Shown here: one piece after another, positions 43,137 through 55,355 of the stretch
Numbering within the stretch: position 1 is the first letter of the stretch
How the letters are laid out: each line of letters opens with the position of its first letter
NCBI RefSeq assembly: GCF_023612095.1
Contig: NZ_CP086235.1
Coordinates: forward strand, 455,001-519,000
Source of the DNA: Cytobacillus firmus
GTDB taxonomy: Bacteria > Bacillota > Bacilli > Bacillales > Cytobacillaceae
DNA: 64,000 nucleotides
Reading direction: 5' to 3'
Notes under the pieces: model-generated
Seen by the model: the letters and a program-made list of their open reading frames with translations, nothing else
The model's database searches: none
What the model was told of the DNA's origin: nothing
Made by a program: the position numbers and the translations under genes

Positions 43137-43368
43137 GAATAAGCCCTCCTTAATTTTAAACATTTAAGACAAGGACAAAGTTGTTAAATTCTTACTTATT
43201 TATACCGCTATTCAGAAAAAATGAAACAACAAAAATTAATGCAAATTACGACAAGGATAGATAGACAAACTATAAACATATATCTCCATATATCTACCTA
43301 TTTCCCAATATTTTGATTTTGCGGTAAGATAGTATAATAAAAAGATGAATTTTTTTGGAGGATTTTTA

Positions 43369-44031
43369 ATGGGGTATAGGGTACCGCTACTGAGAGGAAT
43401 AAAAGAGCCTTATTTGATATCACATCAATTAAGAAAAGAAGAAGAGCTGGAAGGACTATGGAAGCAGGCTGTCCGGTTGCTTTTGCTTACTATACTAGTA
43501 TATGGACTAAGTGCCTATTTTGGGATAGGAAGTGAATTGACAGCAAGAAGGATTACCGAAATATCCGGCAGCGAATATGAAATATATAAGCTTTTCTTTG
43601 GGATTGGCCAAGTTACATGGGGATTGTTATATACTCTTTTTATCATTTTTGTACCAGCTTTGTTTTTATGGACTCTATTGGACAGTGAATATCATAAATT
43701 AATCTCCATTCAATATATGGTTGTGTTGATACTGCTGGTCGAGAAGCTGGTGAATATTCCTTTATATATTTATATGGGGCTGAATAATGAATCTTCGTTA
43801 TTTTCTTTTGGTATAATGGCTCAGGCCATAACCTCGAAAGAACTGCTAATATACTTTTTCTCTTCAATTACACTTTTTAAGATTTGGACTTTTATTCTGC
43901 AATATAAATATTTAAAGGTTATTTCAGAAAAGAGCCCCCGCTTTATTATTTTAATATTGCTTGGAATGCATTTGTTTTTTGTAATTGTGTCTGCATTGCT
44001 TTCGACTATTCATTTGGAAAAGCTGATTTAA
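43369..44031 (+). CDS. Multi-span membrane protein, Yip1/YknW-like
   Basis: A 220-residue protein with about five predicted membrane spans and a cytosolic N-terminus (MGYRVPLLRGIKEPYLI). Its size, topology and position directly before a YknX-like adaptor match B. subtilis YknW, a Yip1-family protein needed for assembly of the YknXYZ exporter that protects against the SDP killing peptide (known). ATG 43369 is preceded by TTGGAGGA. The assignment rests on context more than on conserved residues. Confidence 0.65.
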   Translation: MGYRVPLLRGIKEPYLISHQLRKEEELEGLWKQAVRLLLLTILVYGLSAYFGIGSELTARRITEISGSEYEIYKLFFGIGQVTWGLLYTLFIIFVPALFLWTLLDSEYHKLISIQYMVVLILLVEKLVNIPLYIYMGLNNESSLFSFGIMAQAITSKELLIYFFSSITLFKIWTFILQYKYLKVISEKSPRFIILILLGMHLFFVIVSALLSTIHLEKLI

Positions 44032-44046
44032 GTGGAGGACCTTTTT

Positions 44047-45258
44047 ATGATTTGGAAAATGAGATTACTGGGACTGGGTGTTCTGCTGTTTCTCGCTTGC
44101 AATGTAGTCTTGGTTTTCAGCAGCGATAAGATTGGCAGGACTTATTATGTGGATGATTGGACTGCTGTGAAGAAACAGGATTTGCTGGAAACGATGCCGG
44201 CAGAAGGAGTGCTGGCCCCAAAAGAGGAACAGCACGTATATTACGATAGTGCCACCGGAAAGTTTAATGGCTTTAAAGTGGAAAAGGGTGACAAAGTCCA
44301 GCCGGGAGATGCAATTTATGAATTTTCCCCTGAGGATATTACATCTGCTAAAGAGGCTTATCAAATAGAAAAAGAAAAGCTGGAAAACGAATTAGTAAGT
44401 ATTGAAAAGAATATAAATGACCTTGAAATCATGAGAAGAAGCCTTGCGGCTGTTCCATCCGAAGAGAATGATCAGAACTCGGACAAGTATATGGCCCAGC
44501 TGATTCAAAAGGATATACTGGAAAAAGAAATGCAAAAAGACACGCTCGAAAGTGAAATTGGCAAGTATGAGGATTTAATAGGTGCAGCAGAAGAAAGCCT
44601 TTTGAACCTTGAGGCTGTTAGTGAAATAGCCGGGACGGTTAAAAGCATTAATCACGATCTGTCCAACCCAGTAGCAACCATTGTTTCAAATGAGCATATT
44701 GCCGAAGGCGTTTTTTCCGAAGAGGAAGTAAAAAAAGCTTCAGAAGGTATGCGGGTGTTGATTACGAATGTTAATACCGGTAAAAAGGTTAGCGGTACAA
44801 TAGAAAAAGTGCTGACATATCCTGAATCAAAACCATCCCCCAAGAAAGAAAGCCGATATGCATTTAGGGCTGTACTGGATGGGGAACCTGAGAATCAAAG
44901 CATCCATGGAGAACATGTTGCTATGAAAATAATCTTGAATGAAATTAAAGGCACTCTGACCGTTCCGTCTAAAGCGGTGCGAAAATCCAATAAGGGTTCC
45001 TTTAGCTATATGATTAGGCAGGACGGAAATCTTGAAAAAAGAAAAGTTAAATCAGGAATTACAATTGCCAAAACACAGGAAATCAAGGATGGAGCATCAG
45101 CAGGAGAACTTGTACTATTGGAGCGGCCCCCATTCCTTAAATCGGGATATCCATTCATAACGCCGATAGAAATCAGCAGGATAAACAAGAAGGATTTTAA
45201 ATCAGCCGGGAAGAAGAATATGCTGAAAATATCGGTAAGAGGAATAGTAGCGAACTAG
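44047..45258 (+). CDS. Membrane-fusion/adaptor protein (YknX-like efflux subunit)
   Basis: A 403-residue protein with one N-terminal membrane anchor (about residues 7-25), a short lipoyl-like half (GKFNGFKVEKGDKVQPGDAIYEF), a long coiled-coil hairpin (about 100-185, SAKEAYQIEKEKLENELVSI and EKEMQKDTLESEIGKYEDLI), the second lipoyl half (SEIAGTVKSI) and a beta-barrel/membrane-proximal domain (TVPSKAVRKSNKG). It would bridge an ABC exporter to the cell surface. It follows the membrane protein by 15 bp. No ABC ATPase or MacB-type permease follows: a terminator comes directly after the stop. Confidence 0.82.
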   Translation: MIWKMRLLGLGVLLFLACNVVLVFSSDKIGRTYYVDDWTAVKKQDLLETMPAEGVLAPKEEQHVYYDSATGKFNGFKVEKGDKVQPGDAIYEFSPEDITSAKEAYQIEKEKLENELVSIEKNINDLEIMRRSLAAVPSEENDQNSDKYMAQLIQKDILEKEMQKDTLESEIGKYEDLIGAAEESLLNLEAVSEIAGTVKSINHDLSNPVATIVSNEHIAEGVFSEEEVKKASEGMRVLITNVNTGKKVSGTIEKVLTYPESKPSPKKESRYAFRAVLDGEPENQSIHGEHVAMKIILNEIKGTLTVPSKAVRKSNKGSFSYMIRQDGNLEKRKVKSGITIAKTQEIKDGASAGELVLLERPPFLKSGYPFITPIEISRINKKDFKSAGKKNMLKISVRGIVAN

Positions 45259-45259
45259 C

Positions 45260-45293
45260 CAAAAACCAGCCACTGCGGCTGGTTTTTATTTTT
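45260..45293 (+). terminator. Rho-independent terminator after the adaptor gene
   Basis: AAAAACCAGCC-ACTGC-GGCTGGTTTTT followed by ATTTTT. Confidence 0.9.
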
Positions 45294-45456
45294 GGCTCTG
45301 CTATAAATTAATTAAAACGAACGATTGTATAAATGGAATGAAGAGTTGGAGAAGGATGATAGGCAAGAGACTGTTGATGTTCGCCTTTAAACGCACTGCT
45401 TCAAATATATCGTTTGAAGTTAAAAGTAAACAAGGATTAAATAAATTGAAATTTGC

Positions 45457-45714
45457 TTACCTGATTCCTTCAGTTTTTAGCTCATCAATGACTTTCCTCA
45501 GAAATCTTCTGGTTTGGTCTATATCCGCAATGGTGTTGTTATCAAAATGGCTATCAGCCCAGGATGTCTTCCCGGTAGAGCGTATGAGTAACTTTCCACC
45601 CTTAATTAAGTAGTGATTGGTTTGCTTAAAATTTCTATCGGTGAAATCAGTTGTTTTCGAAAATCCCTCATTTATATCTAAGAGTTTTTGTATTACATCC
45701 TTCGTTAATCTCAT
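45457..45714 (-). CDS. Hypothetical protein, 85 aa
   Basis: Not recognised. It has a perfect GAGGAGGG site before ATG 45714. It is a charged, mixed alpha/beta protein with HYLIKGGKLLIRSTGKTSWA in the middle and a C-terminal helix (QTRRFLRKVIDELKTEG). No partner is evident. The gap 45715-45956 holds nothing I can identify. Confidence 0.65.
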   Translation of the reverse strand: MRLTKDVIQKLLDINEGFSKTTDFTDRNFKQTNHYLIKGGKLLIRSTGKTSWADSHFDNNTIADIDQTRRFLRKVIDELKTEGIR

Positions 45715-45956
45715 GGTATAACCCTCCTCAAATTCCGATTTATAATACTCTTTTAAATAATATGCATAACCTGCTCATTCCTTTCTTGATTTCTTAATGA
45801 ACTAATAAGAAAATCAGCATTCAGACTTTTTAAATTGGCTCTTTTCATATAAAATGTTGTTTTTGACCTACCAATGTTGCCCGTTGGTTTCCGCTAAAGG
45901 ATGCTCACTTTCTGCTCCAATCAGGTCAGTAAATAATTCCTTGCGAAAGCAGCCTT

Positions 45957-46250
45957 TCAATTAAACTGATCCTCCTTACCGGAGCCAAATCTAAATAGAA
46001 TGCCGAAGAAAAGAGCAGCAGCGGTAACAAGCCAGACGATTAAAAAAACGGTGCTTAGTTTTATAAAATCAGTTTTCAACGAGGAAAGTTGGTTAACATA
46101 GACGATAAAGATCAGGGGAGCAGCATTGCAAAGAAAGAAGAATAATAAGATAAATAATTTAAGAGGAGACTGATTATGAATCCTGGTGTAAATTAACAAT
46201 AGGCTCATGAGCAATAAGGCTAAAGATAAAAAGGCAATTAGGTACACCAT
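45957..46250 (-). CDS. Small integral membrane protein, 97 aa
   Basis: Three predicted membrane spans (about residues 2-21, 31-51 and 66-86) with short loops and a charged C-terminus (SGKEDQFN). GGAGG precedes ATG 46250. No family recognised; possibly an accessory or immunity-type membrane protein, but nothing in the context decides this. Confidence 0.65.
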   Translation of the reverse strand: MVYLIAFLSLALLLMSLLLIYTRIHNQSPLKLFILLFFFLCNAAPLIFIVYVNQLSSLKTDFIKLSTVFLIVWLVTAAALFFGILFRFGSGKEDQFN

Positions 46251-46322
46251 ATATTGAATCCTCCATTATTAAAATGTAACTATATCATTCTTCAAATATA
46301 CGTAAATTCCCTTCATATGTAT

Positions 46323-46350
46323 GAAAAAAAGACACCCGAGAAGGTGTCTT
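46323..46350 (-). terminator. Rho-independent terminator of the cell-wall hydrolase gene
   Basis: On the minus strand AAGACACC-TTCTCG-GGTGTC is followed by TTTTTTTC; it begins at the stop codon. Confidence 0.9.
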
Positions 46351-47365
46351 AATAAAATCGCTTAAACCCATCAAAATGTTTTTTGTAGTAAGAGTTATTC
46401 AGATTGGTAATTTCAATGCCATTTGATGAAGCATGGATAAATTGGTTATCTCCTAAATAAAATCCCATATGAGAGATTCCCTGCTTATATGTATTCTCGA
46501 AAAATACTAAATCCCCAGGCTGCGGCTTGTCTATATAAAAGGAACGGCTGTAATAGCCTTCAGCCGAATACCTCCCCAGCTTTGAACCTGACTTATTCAA
46601 AACATAGTAGATAAACCCGCTGCAATCGAAACCTTCCGGAGTGCTTCCGCCCCATTTATAGGGAACCCCTATATGCTTCTTGGCTTCGGCCAGCAGTGAC
46701 GATGCTGCTGATTGACTCTCTTTTACTTCTCCTGTTTGACTTCCATTTGTGTTTGCTCCCAGACGCAGCTTCTGTCCAATAAAAATTAAGTCGGAATTCA
46801 AATTATTCCATGTCTTGATCTGCTGGACAGTTACCTTATTTCTGGATGCAATTCCGCTTAAGGTATCACCTTTTGTTACTGCATAAAGGCTTTCTGCAGT
46901 TTGTGCCGGAGTAGGATTGGATGATGCAGTATCCTTCTGGTCAGCTGGAGAACTTACCGCATTTGAAGTTAACTTAAAGACTTGGCCAGGGTAAATCAGA
47001 TGGTTTGTTAAATTATTCAGCTTCATTAAGTCATTTAAGGAAATATTATGCTGTGCAGCGATCTTCGACAGCGTATCTCCTGATTGGACAGTATATGTAT
47101 TGACTGTTTCTTTTGCCGGGGCAGCTGGTGTGCTGCTTTCGGATTTAACTACCTTGCCTGGCAGCTGAAGCTTTTGGTTAATAAAAATATTGTCTGATTT
47201 TAATCCATTCAGCTTCTTAATTTCAGGGACAGAAGTGCTGTACTTTAAGGACAATTGATATAGTGTGTCCCCCTTCTTCACCACATATGCTTCAGCAGAA
47301 GCCTGTGCAGCAAACCCGGAAGATAATATGGCTGCAGCGGCAATGGATGCCATTTGTTTTTTCAC
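46349..47365 (-). CDS. LysM-NlpC/P60 peptidoglycan DL-endopeptidase (LytE/CwlS type)
   Basis: A 338-residue secreted autolysin. A signal peptide (to about QASAEA, residue 25) is followed by three LysM wall-binding domains (YVVKKGDTLYQLS, YTVQSGDTLSKIA, YAVTKGDTLSGIA) joined by Ser/Pro/Ala-rich linkers, and a C-terminal NlpC/P60 domain with catalytic Cys in FDCSGFIYYVL, His in GISHMGFYLGD and the third residue in FIHASS. It cuts the D-Glu-meso-DAP bond of stem peptides during growth or cell separation. The start is GTG 47365 with AAAGGAGTG upstream. Confidence 0.94.
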   Translation of the reverse strand: MKKQMASIAAAAILSSGFAAQASAEAYVVKKGDTLYQLSLKYSTSVPEIKKLNGLKSDNIFINQKLQLPGKVVKSESSTPAAPAKETVNTYTVQSGDTLSKIAAQHNISLNDLMKLNNLTNHLIYPGQVFKLTSNAVSSPADQKDTASSNPTPAQTAESLYAVTKGDTLSGIASRNKVTVQQIKTWNNLNSDLIFIGQKLRLGANTNGSQTGEVKESQSAASSLLAEAKKHIGVPYKWGGSTPEGFDCSGFIYYVLNKSGSKLGRYSAEGYYSRSFYIDKPQPGDLVFFENTYKQGISHMGFYLGDNQFIHASSNGIEITNLNNSYYKKHFDGFKRFY

Positions 47366-48390: not shown

Positions 48391-48647
48391 ATGATCACCT
48401 CTATAAAATATTCTTAAAGTTATACTATGGGAAGAAAAACTTCGTTTACAAGAGTAATAAGGGTCATAGAGCGGGAAAATGGGATTAATTCCATAATCCA
48501 GGATTTCAGCAAACATGTTTTAATAATCTTATCGAGCAGTATGTTGCTTATCCGCATCAGACTAAGGAACATAGTGTCGAATGCAGATTCATGTGCATAC
48601 TATTGAGGATAAACCTATGGTTTTTTTATTATCCTTTATAATCTCCA

Positions 48648-48686
48648 ATTTTGCCGCCCTTTTTTTGGGGTGGCCTTTTTTATGTG
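48648..48686 (+). terminator. GC-rich hairpin with T-run in the divergent intergenic region
   Basis: GCCGCCC-TTTTTTT-GGGGTGGC followed by CTTTTTTAT looks like a terminator, but I find no convincing gene upstream on the plus strand between 48391 and 48640. It may end an unannotated RNA or peptide gene. Confidence 0.5.
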
Positions 48687-48715
48687 AATTACATGCAAAT
48701 GAAAAGGAGAAATGG

Positions 48716-48747
48716 TCAAACATATCGAATATATGAATTATGTTTGA
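48716..48747. promoter_or_regulatory. Inverted repeat TCAAACATA...TATGTTTGA, candidate regulator site
   Basis: Two perfect nine-base arms separated by 14 bp, about 130 bp before the PlcR-like gene at 48880. It is not a PlcR box (TATGNAN4TNCATA), but its place between divergent RRNPP regulators makes it the best operator candidate. Confidence 0.45.
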
Positions 48748-48879
48748 ATTAGTGCCAGCTGCTCCTGTCAGGTAAGAAACAGCTTTACAGCCTGCCTAAA
48801 ATGCACTGTTAATTATGTACAGTATTATACTATCTTATAATAAAATAGAACTATTACTATATTAAGCGAGGGAATAACA

Positions 48880-49764
48880 ATGAATTTAAGTGAATATTTA
48901 ATTGGTGATAGTCTTAAATCGTTCCGTCAATATAAAAATATAAGTGTAAAGGAACTGGCAGACGGAATCTGTTCAGAGGATGAGCTGCTTTCATATGAAC
49001 GTGAAAAGTCATACCCAAGCCTGGAAACATTAAACCAATTAGCCAATAAATTAAATATTGATCTTACCTATTTTTTTAATATCGCGTCAAAGTCATCCAT
49101 TAATTATTCTACTGCTGTCATGCAAATCATAAATAAATATAAGCGGAAGTGGAATTATCAGGCCATATATGAAATTGTTCAAAAAGAATTAAATAACCCA
49201 ATCTTTCAGCCTGCCATGCTAAAGCAATTCCTTGTCTGGCATCAGGGCATAAGTGTATTTTATCTGGAAAAGGATTTTGAAAAAGCGATAAATATTCTCC
49301 ATGGCGCATTGGATCTAACCAATGAAAAAAGAGAGAACCTCACAGAGAGGGAAGTCGAGATTCTGACCAGTATTGCTATCTTATATAAAGATACCGGGCG
49401 ATATGAAGAAGCGATTAATCTATTTAAAAAAGCGCTTGGCGATATGGAGAAGTTGCCTCATATTCTGGAATCAAGAGGGAAGGTAAGGGTTTTATTTGGG
49501 TTATCACAAGCATTAACAGAGATGGGCGATTTTGAGGAATCCTTGTACTACTGTGAAAAGGGAATAGAAATCTGCATTCATGAAGAAATAATGTACTTAT
49601 TCGCAAACCTGCATTATCAATCGGGCGAAAACCTCATTAAATTAGGACAAAAAGAAAAAGGGCAGGAATATATATTAAAGTCTATCTATATTCTCCGATT
49701 GCAGCAGAATGAAAATTTTATTCAAATCGTGGAGAAAGAGATGGAAAAATTATTAAATACATGA
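48880..49764 (+). CDS. PlcR-like XRE-TPR regulator (RRNPP type), paralogue 2
   Basis: A 294-residue protein with an N-terminal XRE helix-turn-helix (LKSFRQYKNISVKELADGI) and TPR-like repeats (SIAILYKDTGRYEEAINLFK, LFGLSQALTEMGDFEESLYY, LANLHYQSGENLIKLGQKEK misreading aside: the last is FANLHYQSGENLIKLGQ). It aligns along its length with paralogue 1 (WHQGISVFYLEKD against WHKAIYSYHVHHE). A peptide precursor gene follows after 43 bp, the layout of plcR-papR in the Bacillus cereus group and of other RRNPP pairs. It is expected to bind the mature peptide in the cytosol and switch target transcription. AT-rich TATAAT-like sequences lie at 48836. Confidence 0.9.
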   Translation: MNLSEYLIGDSLKSFRQYKNISVKELADGICSEDELLSYEREKSYPSLETLNQLANKLNIDLTYFFNIASKSSINYSTAVMQIINKYKRKWNYQAIYEIVQKELNNPIFQPAMLKQFLVWHQGISVFYLEKDFEKAINILHGALDLTNEKRENLTEREVEILTSIAILYKDTGRYEEAINLFKKALGDMEKLPHILESRGKVRVLFGLSQALTEMGDFEESLYYCEKGIEICIHEEIMYLFANLHYQSGENLIKLGQKEKGQEYILKSIYILRLQQNENFIQIVEKEMEKLLNT

Positions 49765-49807
49765 TAAAATTTACAATAAATATAGGTTCCGGGAGGGATT
49801 AATTGTA

Positions 49808-49987
49808 ATGAAAAAATTACTTTTAGCTAGTGTGTTAGCCTTAGGGGTGGCTGCAGCAGGTTCATCTTTTAATGCAGAGGCTGGAATTCCATCAGAACAT
49901 AGCCCGGCGAAAAGCGTAGAGTTAGCAGGAATTCCTTCTGAACACAGTCCTTCATTCTCTGTCATGGGGATTCCTTCAGAACATTAA
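49808..49987 (+). CDS. PapR-like secreted peptide precursor with three GIPSEH repeats
   Basis: A 59-residue product too short for routine ORF calling. It begins MKKLLLASVLALGVAAAG, a signal peptide very like that of PapR, with a likely cleavage after FNAEA. The remaining 34 residues are three copies of GIPSEH: GIPSEHSPAKSVELA, GIPSEHSPSFSVM, and a final GIPSEH at the C-terminus. The first repeat starts exactly at the predicted cleavage site and the last ends at the stop codon. GGGAGGG precedes the ATG. Directly after a PlcR-like regulator, this is most simply a multi-copy quorum-sensing pheromone precursor. I do not recognise GIPSEH as a described pheromone. Oligopeptide permease import would be needed and is not encoded here. 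Confidence 0.85.
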   Translation: MKKLLLASVLALGVAAAGSSFNAEAGIPSEHSPAKSVELAGIPSEHSPSFSVMGIPSEH

Positions 49988-50008
49988 TTAGAAGAGAAAT
50001 ATCAGGGA

Positions 50009-50034
50009 GGCGGGGTAATTCCCGCTTTTTTTTA
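50009..50034 (+). terminator. Terminator of the regulator-peptide operon
   Basis: GCGGGGTAATTCCCGC followed by TTTTTTTTATTT, about 20 bp after the peptide gene. Confidence 0.85.
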
Positions 50035-50045
50035 TTTAATAGAGA

Positions 50046-50094
50046 AAAAGCGCTGAACTGCAGTTGATCAGATAACTGCAGTTCAGCGCTTTTT
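50046..50094. terminator. Long perfect hairpin, bidirectional terminator
   Basis: AAAAAGCGCTGAACTGCAGTT and its reverse complement around GATCAGAT, a stem of about 20 bp with flanking A/T runs. It isolates the quorum-sensing operon from the S-layer gene. Confidence 0.85.
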
Positions 50095-50521
50095 ACATTT
50101 TCAGGATGATAGCAAGACTTTTGTACTGAGTTTAATTTACTGATTAAAAACGACTATAAAAAGGATAGTTTAACCATTATTTTGTATCCTTTATATGGAG
50201 ATTTTTATAATAAAGTTGCATTTGAACTATGAATTGGAAACAATTACTAGGTTTATTAGTGAAAAAATTGTAAAAACGGCCTAGAATTTAGTAGAATTAT
50301 GTATTATTATAGGATTACAAGAATGATTTGGTAATTTATCCATATCATTCTCCATTTGTTTATATTGAACTATATATTTGCATTAATTGCTAATGGAGTT
50401 TATTATTTACAGATGGAACTAGTATAATAGTTGTTAAGATTGTTAGTCATTGGAAAATGTTTAAAAATACATAGATCCTTCCAATGAACTACTTTTAATA
50501 ATGAAAGGGGAACTAGCGAAA
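50095..50521 (+). promoter_or_regulatory. Long AT-rich leader and promoter region of the S-layer gene
   Basis: No gene is visible. TATAAT occurs at 50423-50428 and TATTAT at 50302-50307, with TTGTAA at 50268; none has an ideal -35 partner. The message would have a leader of about 90-200 nt, as is common for S-layer genes. GAAAGGGG precedes the start codon at 50522. Confidence 0.4.
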
Positions 50522-53500
50522 ATGAGTAAAAAGAAAGCAATTAAGATTGCTGCAGCTTCAGCAATCGCAGCTTCATCATTCGCAGCCATCGCACCAGCAC
50601 AAGCTGATGCAGCTTCTCGAAACGGAAGTGAAAAAAGCTGTCGAGTATGCAAAATATAAAATGTGGCTTCCGTACAAAGAATTCTCTAAAACAGGAGAAA
50701 ACCCTGGGAAAGAGCCGGTATGGGCAGGCACAGTTCAAAAGCTAATTGACGAAGCACATGCTGAAAAAGCGAAAGCGCAAAAGCTTCTTGATGGTTACAA
50801 AGGAAGCGATAAAGCAAAGCTTCAAGCTACCCTTAATGAAAATGCGAAATTCGTCCAAAATGCTCAAGAATACATCTACGCTAGATGGTTCGGAGATGAC
50901 CTTCTTGGCAAGCATGACTGGGATGGCGCTGTAAAAGACGCTCTTGCTGGAAACCTTGAAGATATTACGGATCAAGGTAAAAAAGGCGAAGATTACACTT
51001 CTATTGAAGATTTAAATAACCTATACTTCGATTTCGACAAGGAAATCAATGCGGCAAGAAAGCAAATCGACAAAGTATGGGGAGCAGACAACCGCTCGGT
51101 ACTTAAGGGCTACTTCACTGCACCAGCTTACAAGCAACATGCTGTAAAGCTTAAAGATGCTGCCTGGGCTGTTCATTTCACAGAAAAAGCTGAATGGTGG
51201 TTAGACAACTCTGAGGAGTCTGAAAACTTCTTGGCAAATGCTAAAAACCACTTAGAAACAGCTCAAAAGCACCTTGATAAAGTAGAAGATTCAGAGCTTA
51301 AAGATCTTGTTGTAGCATACTTCGATGAAATCACTGAAAGAGTTGCAGAACTTGAAGTTCCTGCTGTTAAAGAAGTAAGTGCAATTGAAGATATCAAGAT
51401 AACTGAAGGCGAAAAAGTAGAACTTCCAGAAAAAGTTGAAGTCACTTACGAAGATGATACTACTGAAGAAGTGGCTGTAACTTGGAATGCTGATGAGTTC
51501 GACTTCTCTAAGCCAGGAACTTATGAACTAACTGGTACAATTGAAGGAACAGAACTTACTGCTTCTGTAAAGGTTGTTGTTGAGGCAGCTCTTCCTGAAG
51601 TTGTTGAGGTAAGTGCGATTACTAAAACAGATGTAACTGTTACATTAGGAGCTGCTCCAGCTGCTGAATTAACAAATGCTGATGCTTCTAAATTTGAAGT
51701 TAAAGTTGGCTCTGAGGCTGTTTCAGTTACAGGAGTTGCTAAAGTTGCTACTGACCTAACTGGCAAAACATACAAATTGACTGTTGCTCTTGACAAAAAA
51801 GAAGGCAAAGTTGCAGTTAATGGTAAAGAATCAGCAACGTTTGACTTCAAAGGACCAGAAGTTGCTACTGTAACTCCACTTTCTGATCGTATCCTAGAGG
51901 TTAAATTCTCAGAAGATGTTAACCAAGGTTTAGCACAACTTCAAGCTAACTATGCAATTGTTGAATCTGGTACAGCTAACCTAACAGGTGTGAGCGGTAT
52001 TCAGGTAATCGATGCTAAAACTGTACGCGTTACAACAAGTGCTGCGTTAACTGACGGAAAGAGCTACACATTAACAGTTAATAACCAACAAGACGTTTCA
52101 GCTAATAAAAACACAAATGTTTCATCTTCCAAAGCATTTACAGCTGCAAAAGATACAGTTAAACCAACAATCGTATCTGCAGTAGCTAAAGATGCTAACA
52201 AAATTGAAGTGACTTTAAGCGAAGAGTTAAAGTCAACTGCAATTACAGCAGTCGTTAAGCCTTATAACACTGATGGTACTCTTGGTACTCAATATGCAGT
52301 TGATTCTGTTGAAATAAGTGGCAAAGTAGCAACAATCACTTTAGATACAGCATCTCTAGAGAATAACAAGCAGTACAATGTTGCTCTAACTGGTGGAGCA
52401 GATTTATCTGATAATGCTATTGCAGATAATCAAAATACCAATTTCACTGGAGTAAGAGATGATATCGCTCCTCTTGTTACTGGACAAGAATTTAAAGATG
52501 GTAAATTAACAATCAACTTTAGTGAGGCAGTAAATAACTTGGGTACAGAAGGTAACTTCTATGTGTTCAGATCTGCAACAGGTCTTCCTGTATTAGTAAA
52601 TACTGCTACACCAAGTGAAGATAATAAATCCGTTACTTTGGAATTCACTACTCCATTAGTTTCTGCAACAACTTATTCAGTAACATTAACTGGAAACACT
52701 ACTACTGGAATCTACGATAAAGCAATTACACCAAATGCTTTAAGAGATAATTCAGTAATCCAATTTACTACACCAGCTGCTGCACCAACAAAAGTTCAAT
52801 TATCAGGAGCTGCTCAGCCTGCTGAAGCTGCGATTGATGGTAAGACAGTTGTACTTTCTTTCAATACAGAATTGGTGAAAGCTGAAGCTGAAAATGTGAG
52901 CAATTACTCAATCGCTTCAGTTGCTGATGCTTCTAAAACTCTTGCAGTTACTAAAGCTGTTTATAATGCAGATGCAAGAACAGTAACTTTGACTACTGCA
53001 GCACAAGAAGAAGGTACAAATAACTATGAAGTAGTTGTAGCAGGTTTATCAAACCTTGACGCAGCATATACAAAAGCTAGATTTAGCGGTGAAGATAAAG
53101 TTGCTCCAACTTTAACTGGTGTTAATGCGCTAAATGAAAAAACTGTAGACCTTGAATTTGATCAAGTTATTGATGGAGACCAATCTGGTGCTACGATTGC
53201 AATCGTTGAAAAAGGAACTGCAAATGTAATTACTAAAGATTCAGTAGAAGAGTTTGAAAAGAAGGTTCGCCTAGGCTTTGACGCTGGAAAATTAGTAAAT
53301 GGAAAAACTTACACAATTACTGTAACAGGTGTTGTGGATGCAAACGGTAATACTTCTGCAGCAAAAACTTATGACTTCACTGTACGTGAAGACAAAACTG
53401 CTGCACAACTTACTGGCGTAACAGTTGTTAATGAAGGAAAAGTTGTTCTTCAGTTCAATGAAGAATTGAAAGCTGCTGGTACAATCGGTAACTATGCAAT

Positions 53501-55355
53501 TAAACAAGGTACTACTGATGTAAGTCTTACTGACTTAGAAGCGTCCCTGAACCCGCAAGATAAAACACAAGTTGTTATCGAAGGTGCTGATGGTGCTGTA
53601 GCATTCTTAGAAAATGGTAAATCATATACTGTAACTGTAACAGGTGGCGTTAAAGATCTTAACGATAATGTTATAGGTACTGCGAGCTATACATTCACAG
53701 GGGTTAAAGATGTTGTAAAACCTCAATTAGTCAGTGCTACTGCTACCGAAGATAATAAGGTAGAATTAACTTTCAGTGAAGAACTTGCTGCATTCGGTGA
53801 TGAAACTGATTACCTAATCACAGATGTAAACACTGGATTACCACTAGCTATTGATTCTGTAGGACCGGTTGAGGATAATGCTAAGAAAGTTCTAATCACT
53901 TTAGATGGTGCTAAAACAGAACTTGGTAAGCAGTATCGAGTATACATTAAAGATGAGGCAGCTATTTCTGACAAAGCAGTGGTAGCAAATCACCTTGACA
54001 CAACTAAACGTGCAGCAGTATTTAATGGTGTAGATACTACTAAAGTGACAGTAACTGGTGCAACTTTATTGGATGCAAGCACTCTAAAAGTGACATTCAG
54101 TGAAAAAGTTAATGCTGGAACAGTATCTGCTTCAGACTTCGTAGTTAACGGTGGAGATGTTTCTTCCGTAACAGTTTCCGAAAATGGTGAATCTGCTACA
54201 TTGAAACTAGCTACTAAATTGACTTCGACCTCTGTTGATGGTATCACTTTCGATTTGAAAACTGGTGAATCAATTGCTGACCCATCTGGTAACAAGTTAG
54301 AAAAAGGTGAAGATCCACTTAGCGAAGGGTTAGTAATCGCTGACGAGGCTGCACCAACATTAGTATCTTACAAAATTACTGATACTGATAAAATTACTTT
54401 AACTTTCTCTGAATCTGCAAAAGCAATTGATGCAGTGACAGCTGGAAATACAATTGCTTCAATTGCTCAGGTTTATGGTAGCGTTATTGAGTCTATTGAT
54501 GATGTCGATGGTAAAGTTGTTATCACAACAACAGCGGCTATTTCTGGAACTCCTACTATTGAGCTTAAAGCTGGTCAAACTGTAATTACTGATGCAGCTG
54601 GTAACAAGTATGCTGGAAATGACATTAAGGTATTAGTTGTTGACCAACAATCTGTTGACCAAGCTGAAGCAGTACGTGCATTTAACGCAGAAGTAGAACG
54701 CGTTGCAGGATTAAATCTAGTTGAAGCAGACTATACAGTAGCTAGCTGGACTGAATTAGAAACTGCCATAACTTTTGATGTAACAGGTAAAACTACAGCA
54801 CAAATTAATGAGGCTACAGCAGCAATCACTTCCGCACAGGAAGCATTAGTAACAAAATACTCTGTAGCTGTGGAAGCATTTAACGCAGAAGTAGAACGCG
54901 TTGCAGGATTAAATCTAGTTGAAGCAGACTATACAGTAGCTAGCTGGACTGAATTAGAAACTGCCTTAGCTTTTGATGTAACAGGTAAAACTGTAACAGA
55001 AGTTGAAGAAGCTACAACGGCAATCACATTAGCACATGCAGGTTTAGTTACTAACTTATCAGTAGTAGAAGAACAAGCTGATCTAGTGACAGATTTAGTT
55101 ATTTCTAGTCCAGCCCAAGTTGAATTGCCAACTGCTGCTAATGATGTAGTGGTAACATTCGATGCTGCTAATGGTACAGTCGCAGCTATTGCTGATAATG
55201 GTGCTGTAACACCTGCAGCTGCTGGACAAACAGAAACTCTTACTTTAAATGTTAACTTTACATTAGGTACTGCTGAAGTAACAAAATCATTTGATGTAAC
55301 AATTGATGAGAATGGTGCAGTTTCTGTAGAACCAACAGCTACACCGGTTGTATAA
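50522..55355 (+). pseudogene. SbsC-type S-layer protein, frameshifted just after the signal peptide
   Basis: Large surface-layer protein of about 1,610 residues. The ATG at 50522 opens a frame encoding MSKKKAIKIAAASAIAASSF and AAIAPAQADAAS, a signal peptide strikingly like that of Geobacillus SbsC, then runs into a stop. The mature protein continues in another frame from about 50618 (ETEVKKAVEYAKYKMW). One extra base at about 50611-50618 (TCTCGAA for TCTGAA) explains it. Residues 35-290 are helical, like the SbsC domain that binds secondary cell-wall polymer. About ten Ig-like (Big) repeats follow, rich in Thr, Val and Ala (for example TVTLSDRILEVKFSEDV-type units), then two FIVAR-like repeats. 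There is no SLH motif or sortase signal. The intact 4.7-kb remainder argues for a recent lesion or a sequencing error. Confidence 0.85.
54678..55065 (+). repeat. Two near-identical 198-bp repeats inside the S-layer gene
   Basis: AFNAEVERVAGLNLVEADYT and the next 13 residues recur 66 codons later with about 90 identical bases (54679-54767 and 54877-54965); the second halves diverge (TTAQINEAT against VTEVEEAT). These are FIVAR-like helical modules created by recent duplication. Confidence 0.9.

Follow-up and report, generated by a model that had tools for sequence, protein, structure and literature searches.

The nearest described counterparts of the gene pair reported here are two quorum-sensing systems of the Bacillus cereus group. 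In PlcR-PapR, a receptor composed of an XRE-type HTH and a TPR domain is partnered by a small secreted-type precursor holding one copy of its pheromone; according to passages of PMC6568020, the mature peptide PapR7 is ADLPFEF and its Glu6 is contacted by PlcR Lys89, Gln237 and Tyr275. In PlcRa-PapRa of B. cereus, papRa lies upstream of plcRa, and passages of PMC3519770 give a single PapRa7 segment, CSIPYEY, internal to its precursor. Precursors with several pheromone copies are also on record. In excerpts of PMC9765709 they are reported with as many as six copies for the Rap, NprR, AimR and PlcR types, and among 15 PlcR-type precursors of unusual length 3 had repeats; excerpts of PMC11343458 extend the range to eight copies and demonstrate the production of several pheromones for two phage Rap-Phr systems. 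In its relevant passages, PMC5199041 relays the proposal that Rap-Phr pheromone duplication is a transient step towards new specificity, and also mentions fungal mating-pheromone precursors with repeated copies in one gene, a eukaryotic case that serves as an analogy only. Within RRNPP signalling, the question of why pheromone precursors carry repeats is still open.

The locus lies in a 64,000-nucleotide stretch of the Cytobacillus firmus genome (contig NZ_CP086235.1, positions 455,001 to 519,000; hereafter the window). Its two genes are both on the forward strand and separated by 43 bp: REG (48880..49764), a PlcR-like receptor/regulator of 294 residues, and PEP (49808..49987), a 59-residue putative pheromone precursor. 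These open reading frames agree with the sequence-only reading, which had proposed a PlcR-like XRE-TPR regulator followed by a secreted-type peptide. An RBS-like GGGAGGG precedes PEP (49791..49797, +), and the terminator scan placed an intrinsic terminator-like hairpin 3' of it (50004..50031, +), one of 5 terminator-like sites in the interval 48400-50600, where 1.4 are expected from shuffles. Shortly past this hairpin, a 20-pair inverted repeat at 50046-50093 scored as terminator-like on both strands. Divergent from REG lies a second PlcR-like XRE-TPR protein, regulator B (47500..about 48390, −; the frame is open to 48516 and the start is placed from relatives), which is the sole other match to RNPP_C in the genome.

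The first 25 residues of PEP (49808..49882, +), comprising KK, a hydrophobic stretch and A-E-A, resemble a signal peptide, as judged from hydrophobicity and sequence. Directly after this signal-peptidase-like site comes the first of three GIPSEH copies (residues 26-31; 49883..49900, +), with the others in the middle of the protein (residues 41-46; 49928..49945, +) and at its exact C-terminus (residues 54-59; 49967..49984, +). That these are three exact copies had been noticed from the letters, and a degenerate DNA pattern for G-I-P-S-E-H bears it out, with exactly three matches in the 4.38-Mb single-contig genome, all inside PEP; a control DNA pattern gave 0 matches in the same genome.

REG consists of an XRE HTH (residues 12-65) and a TPR domain matched by RNPP_C (PF18768, residues 86-290) at 73 bits, against a curated cut-off of 26.5. 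The nearest solved protein in both sequence and fold is PlcR, likewise an HTH plus a TPR domain, at 26-27% identity. One mark of RRNPP(A) receptors is a small neighbouring gene that encodes a Sec-type precursor; here a gene of this kind lies 43 bp downstream and is kept in relatives. In a profile alignment, all three PlcR residues that contact PapR Glu6 are replaced, Lys89 by W91, Gln237 by N243 and Tyr275 by F280. Because they are not kept, REG is described as PlcR-like and is not claimed as the ortholog of B. cereus PlcR. G207 of REG stands in place of PlcR Asn201, a residue with a role in PlcR.

GIPSEH has the (L/I)-P-x-(E/Q) core of a PlcR-type pheromone, as do ADLPFEF and CSIPYEY, and given these two sequences (A)GIPSEH can be aligned with PapR7 and PapRa7 position by position. 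AGIPSEH and its relative ADLPSQH share with the C-terminal ADLPFEF of PapR the series D/G, L/I, P, x, E/Q and Phe or His, the difference being that His here replaces the last Phe. AGIPSEH shares the I-P-x-E core with PapRa7, and 41 of the 74 arrays described below share its internal placement, whereas the precursor gene lies downstream of the receptor gene here and upstream in the account of papRa in passages of PMC3519770. The pherotype of the window would be GIPSEH, and its predicted active form may be GIPSEH or AGIPSEH.

In order to follow the gene pair through related bacteria, which the sequence-only reading had suggested as a check, we searched for homologs of REG: 134 of 193 family genomes and 289 of 397 genomes of the order, partly the same ones, gave a match, and a further scan of named genomes supplied 31 loci. 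The loci taken were the best matches plus a sample of weaker ones among the matches listed, and merging of identical regulators reduced 184 to 146. A single-copy call required the precursor to end exactly with the core, so that single copies elsewhere would escape; one locus masked by N (L037) was entered as having no precursor, and for three precursors that run into a contig end, which were retained, the copy numbers are lower bounds. Among these 146 distinct regulators (best matches and sample), 74 are followed by a multi-copy precursor, 14 by a single-copy one and 58 by none, and the core in the linked precursors is mostly of the type [D/G]-[L/I/Y]-P-x-[Q/E]-H.

The presence of the array follows identity to REG. 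Multi-copy, single-copy and no precursor were counted as 12/0/0 at 70% identity or more, 5/0/0 at 55-70%, 10/0/0 at 50-55%, 26/0/1 at 46-50% (the one being the masked L037), 19/2/2 at 42-46%, 1/6/6 at 38-42%, 1/6/14 at 34-38% and 0/0/35 below 34%; among the loci fetched, most regulators below 38% thus have no linked precursor. Homologs without any conserved linked peptide had been named beforehand as evidence that would tell against the pair. The counts do not bear this out: at 42% identity to REG or more there are 77 distinct regulators, of which 72 have a multi-copy and 2 a single-copy precursor, one is the N-masked locus and two have none. Applied to the 144 loci with enough flank, the same detector found 72 multi-copy and 14 single-copy precursors downstream of the regulator, one multi-copy and no single-copy precursor upstream, none of either kind on the reverse complement, and a mean of 0.05 multi-copy and 0.05 single-copy per shuffled set.

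Among named species, multi-copy precursors are found in Cytobacillus, Neobacillus, Peribacillus, Lederbergia and other genera. A plasmid search returned 29 records, the best of which (H1, 51%) is the one examined: plasmid NZ_CP062791.1 (281 kb) of Cytobacillus oceanisediminis YPW-V2 encodes, next to a REG homolog of 51% identity, a 54-residue precursor with GYPTQH twice (L171:3905-4069), annotated as hypothetical only. A search for relatives in viral_contigs gave 111 pattern stretches, 0 of them confirmed, and phage records contained two weak hits at 25-28%. Elsewhere, the loci L069-L073 show tandem pairs of PlcR-like regulators, 33-40% identical to REG, beside which no linked peptide was detected, and two regulators near the multi-copy clade (L149 and L152) are followed by a short open reading frame that has a leader-like start and no core, a possible case of loss.

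The 74 multi-copy precursors hold 2-16 copies each (median 4), 383 in total, with more than eight copies in 10 of them and a maximum of sixteen GLPTQH in one (L059). A copy stands at the exact C-terminus in 33; the other 41 lack one in the sequence read, ending in a tail or, in three of them, at a contig-end cut. Over the 383 copies, the commonest core residues are D/G/E, L/I/Y/M, P, S/T/V, Q/E and H, the preceding residue is Ala in 247 and the following residue is Ser in 245; the last copy has Ala before it in 29 of the 74 precursors. Precursor length exceeds 100 residues in 29 of the 74. The single-copy precursors measure 28-49 residues, and all 14 end with the core because the search demands it. 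In a maximum likelihood tree of 127 rows (quick method, SH-aLRT support), 72 multi-copy regulators and the masked L037 make up a core clade of 73 rows with support 98. A wider clade of 78 rows (support 84) adds two further multi-copy regulators (L155 and L120) and three peptide-less rows, and next to it stand three single-copy rows. The remaining 11 of the 14 single-copy rows lie outside, including those of Priestia flexa (GLPNQH) and Metabacillus litoralis (DLPDQH). The multi-copy state requires 3 parsimony changes, compared with 41 when labels are shuffled. The simplest reading is that the array was gained once and later expanded, with some branches long and the branch order unsure.

Codon differences within the arrays point to selection on the peptide. 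In the window, the three cores of PEP differ by 8 pairwise codon differences, all synonymous, with 0 amino-acid changes; the third-position differences listed in the sequence-only reading are correct, and GGA/GGG in copy 3 should be added to them. Its argument that selection acts on the peptide, as opposed to recent DNA duplication, also holds over all 74 precursors. Core codon columns that vary between copies number 291 with synonymous changes only and 10 with amino-acid changes, as against 88 and 200 for the six codons following the core (Fisher p 5e-72 against the core). As the search pattern wholly or partly fixes positions 2, 3 and 6, positions 1, 4 and 5 were counted alone, giving 148 and 8 (p 1e-43). 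Copies that have lost the search pattern go uncounted in these figures, and some last copies are visibly degenerate. The cores are identical in amino acids across all copies in 64 of the 74 precursors, and every one of the 64 shows one or more synonymous differences; the copies have therefore been kept by selection and are not the product of fresh duplication only.

Receptor and pheromone co-vary, including at positions aligned to PlcR Gln237 and Lys89. Normalised mutual information was computed for 88 receptor-pheromone pairs over 266 variable receptor columns with no prior choice of columns. For pheromone position 5 (Q/E), REG 243 and REG 91 rank first and second of the 266 columns; they align to PlcR Gln237 and Lys89 respectively, and the chance of two such contact columns ranking top is 8.5e-5, assuming independent columns. 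On the tree, this Q/E signal is one event (16 tips), and in one locus (L021) the pheromone GIPSQH reverts at position 5 without reversion of the receptor. When the pairs were thinned to 46 representatives, column 243 was still first and column 91 dropped to rank 25. REG 280, the Tyr275 column, stands at rank 210 of 266 and does not follow the pheromone.

Pheromone position 1 is matched by charge in the receptor. REG 214 is Lys or Arg in 35 of the 46 pairs with an acidic residue (D/E) at position 1 and Asp or Glu in 33 of the 42 pairs without one, and REG 250 is Glu in 39 of these 42 and in 3 of the 46; the window's REG has E214 and E250. On the tree, position 1 switches six times between an acidic and a non-acidic residue, and on five of those branches the charge at REG 214 changes in compensation, which makes it the best of 178 columns for branch-sharing switches (the next best has 3); P is 1.9e-5 if changes fall evenly over branches and about 0.003 when corrected for 178 columns. 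REG 250 shows few switches on exactly the branch of the pheromone change.

Starting from the gene pair, its conserved linkage, the selection on the core, the PlcR-like fold and the covariation as computed here, we consider REG-PEP very probably to be a PlcR/PapR-like quorum-sensing pair with a cytoplasmic receptor, whose precursor is in this lineage an array of 2-16 copies. PEP would be exported by Sec, its leader would be cut at AEA, and extracellular proteases would release from the array several identical peptides containing GIPSEH. Building up with cell density, these would re-enter via an Opp-type oligopeptide permease and act on REG by binding in its TPR groove and switching the HTH. Import is possible, as the genome has 8 SBP_bac_5 matches, two of them within one open reading frame. 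With 2-16 copies in the array, each precursor should release several doses of one signal, presumably with a higher yield. In our estimation it is unlikely that one copy only, the C-terminal or the first, is the active pheromone and the others are by-products of slippage. The exact C-terminal copy in 33 of 74 precursors, as in PapR, would suit such an arrangement, but the cores are still intact in the 41 precursors without one (three of them contig-cut), and the synonymous differences found in all 64 precursors with identical cores indicate that copies are kept by selection. A precursor whose His-containing copies number as many as 16, apparently beyond the needs of signalling alone, might also be thought an exported effector under REG control, such as a metal-binding His repeat or an antimicrobial, and not the signal of REG. 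Against this stand the likeness of the core to PapR7 and PapRa7 as given in the cited excerpts, the sequence and fold that mark REG as a PlcR-type peptide receptor, the co-variation of core residues with receptor columns, among which two align to PlcR contacts, and the single-copy relatives, which at 28-49 residues and with a C-terminal core by search criterion are laid out like ordinary pheromone precursors; we regard an effector as very improbable.

A quorum-sensing role of the peptide leaves the choice of receptor, for which regulator B has to be weighed, either instead of REG or together with it. B is the only RNPP_C match in the genome besides REG, and no linked peptide was detected beside it. 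A B-type regulator lies divergent within 1.6 kb of REG in 12 of 12 genomes with a REG at least 79% identical (among the matches listed); three further genomes have it downstream of REG-PEP, with an internal stop in one case. However, B differs from REG at the groove positions compared, having Asn and Tyr as PlcR does where REG (positions 207 and 280) has neither, and most precursor-linked REG homologs show no B in the stretches covered, mostly 1-3 kb on each side. Those B copies that were placed on the tree fall within a clade of 23 rows, with no peptide detected in any row. That the peptide signals to B, alone or in addition to REG, seems improbable to us; B may respond to a different peptide or have none of its own.

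The region upstream of REG offers some indication of when the pair may be expressed. A motif resembling the sigma-H consensus, AAAGGA...CGAAT, points towards REG at 48703..48730 (+), the window copy fitting the loose form only. Such a motif stands 160-282 bp in front of REG in 10 of the 12 orthologs with 74% identity or more, nine of them having its strict form, and turns up about 0 times in shuffles of those 12; it is found before 2 of 59 regulators with a precursor at 44-74% identity and 1 of 74 below 44%, where 0.6 are expected in each set. This hints that REG may be switched on as growth ends in this genus. The PlcR box is exact in one locus (L011) and has one mismatch in another (L007), 326-330 bp upstream; the other loci of the 30 shown have at least two mismatches within 400 bp, and the operator may differ from that of PlcR. 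Scans for this box and for exact palindromes upstream of REG homologs found no motif conserved beyond close relatives.

The left flank (43345-47365) resembles that of one relative (L092), and partly that of another (L091), in the order and size of its open reading frames. It encodes a small membrane-like protein, an open reading frame of roughly 97 residues, a LysM-NlpC/P60 cell-wall hydrolase adjoining regulator B, and a further protein that is HlyD-like by eye, without a Pfam match. A scan of five left neighbours gave one LysM plus NlpC/P60 protein, one LytR_cpsA_psr protein and three without a match. To the right, 50501-50659 and 50547-55355 (+) encode a long protein with the bacterial Ig-like domains Big_5 and Big_4 and with SbsC_C below the cut-off; the gene looks frameshifted near its start, naturally or by sequencing error, because the signal-peptide-like start and the body are in different frames. 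The right flank, with its S-layer-like protein in the window, was not taken for an obligate target of the pair, as it differs in the two relatives compared.

The sequence-only reading had presented the system as new, with most known precursors carrying a single copy. The PlcR/PapR-like pair is supported, but the novelty of a multi-copy precursor is not, since PMC9765709 already reports such precursors for PlcR types. Relative to PapR, the differences are the 2-16 copies in place of one, the low identity of the receptor, the replaced contact residues and, in the loci shown, the finding of no conserved PlcR box upstream. With the multi-copy RRNPPA propeptides, as described in those excerpts, the present system shares several identical or near-identical pheromones in one exported-type precursor, and at least two copies per precursor under selection, as found here; it departs from them in that the array occurs in nearly all of one receptor clade, reaches 16 copies and is homogeneous in 64 of 74 cases. 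What is new is a receptor lineage in which the array is nearly fixed and homogeneous, with up to 16 copies, and in which receptor charge follows the pheromone. The passages on repeats in PMC10075063, PMC12700828 and PMC7425212 do not contain this lineage. Five core-motif strings, sought in 5.39 million papers, turned up in 23, of which the 20 listed deal with other subjects by their titles, and among the papers listed we found none that describes this lineage, although published supplementary tables may contain single precursors. One published detector, in the part of PMC10075063 that describes it, makes strict calls within a window of 10-100 residues; such systems may be under-counted, because 29 of the 74 precursors here are longer.

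Evenly balanced, in our judgement, is the broader proposal that this PlcR-like lineage of several Bacillaceae genera, with its homogeneous arrays of 2-16 copies that change together and a receptor charge that matches them, maintains the array as a selected trait, for dose or timed release, and uses REG 214 as a specificity switch for pheromone position 1. The near-fixed, homogeneous arrays and the single-copy precursors outside the clade provide a natural series for the study of dose, release timing and divergence, and the paired receptors and core variants constitute a specificity code open to tests with synthetic hexa- and heptapeptides.
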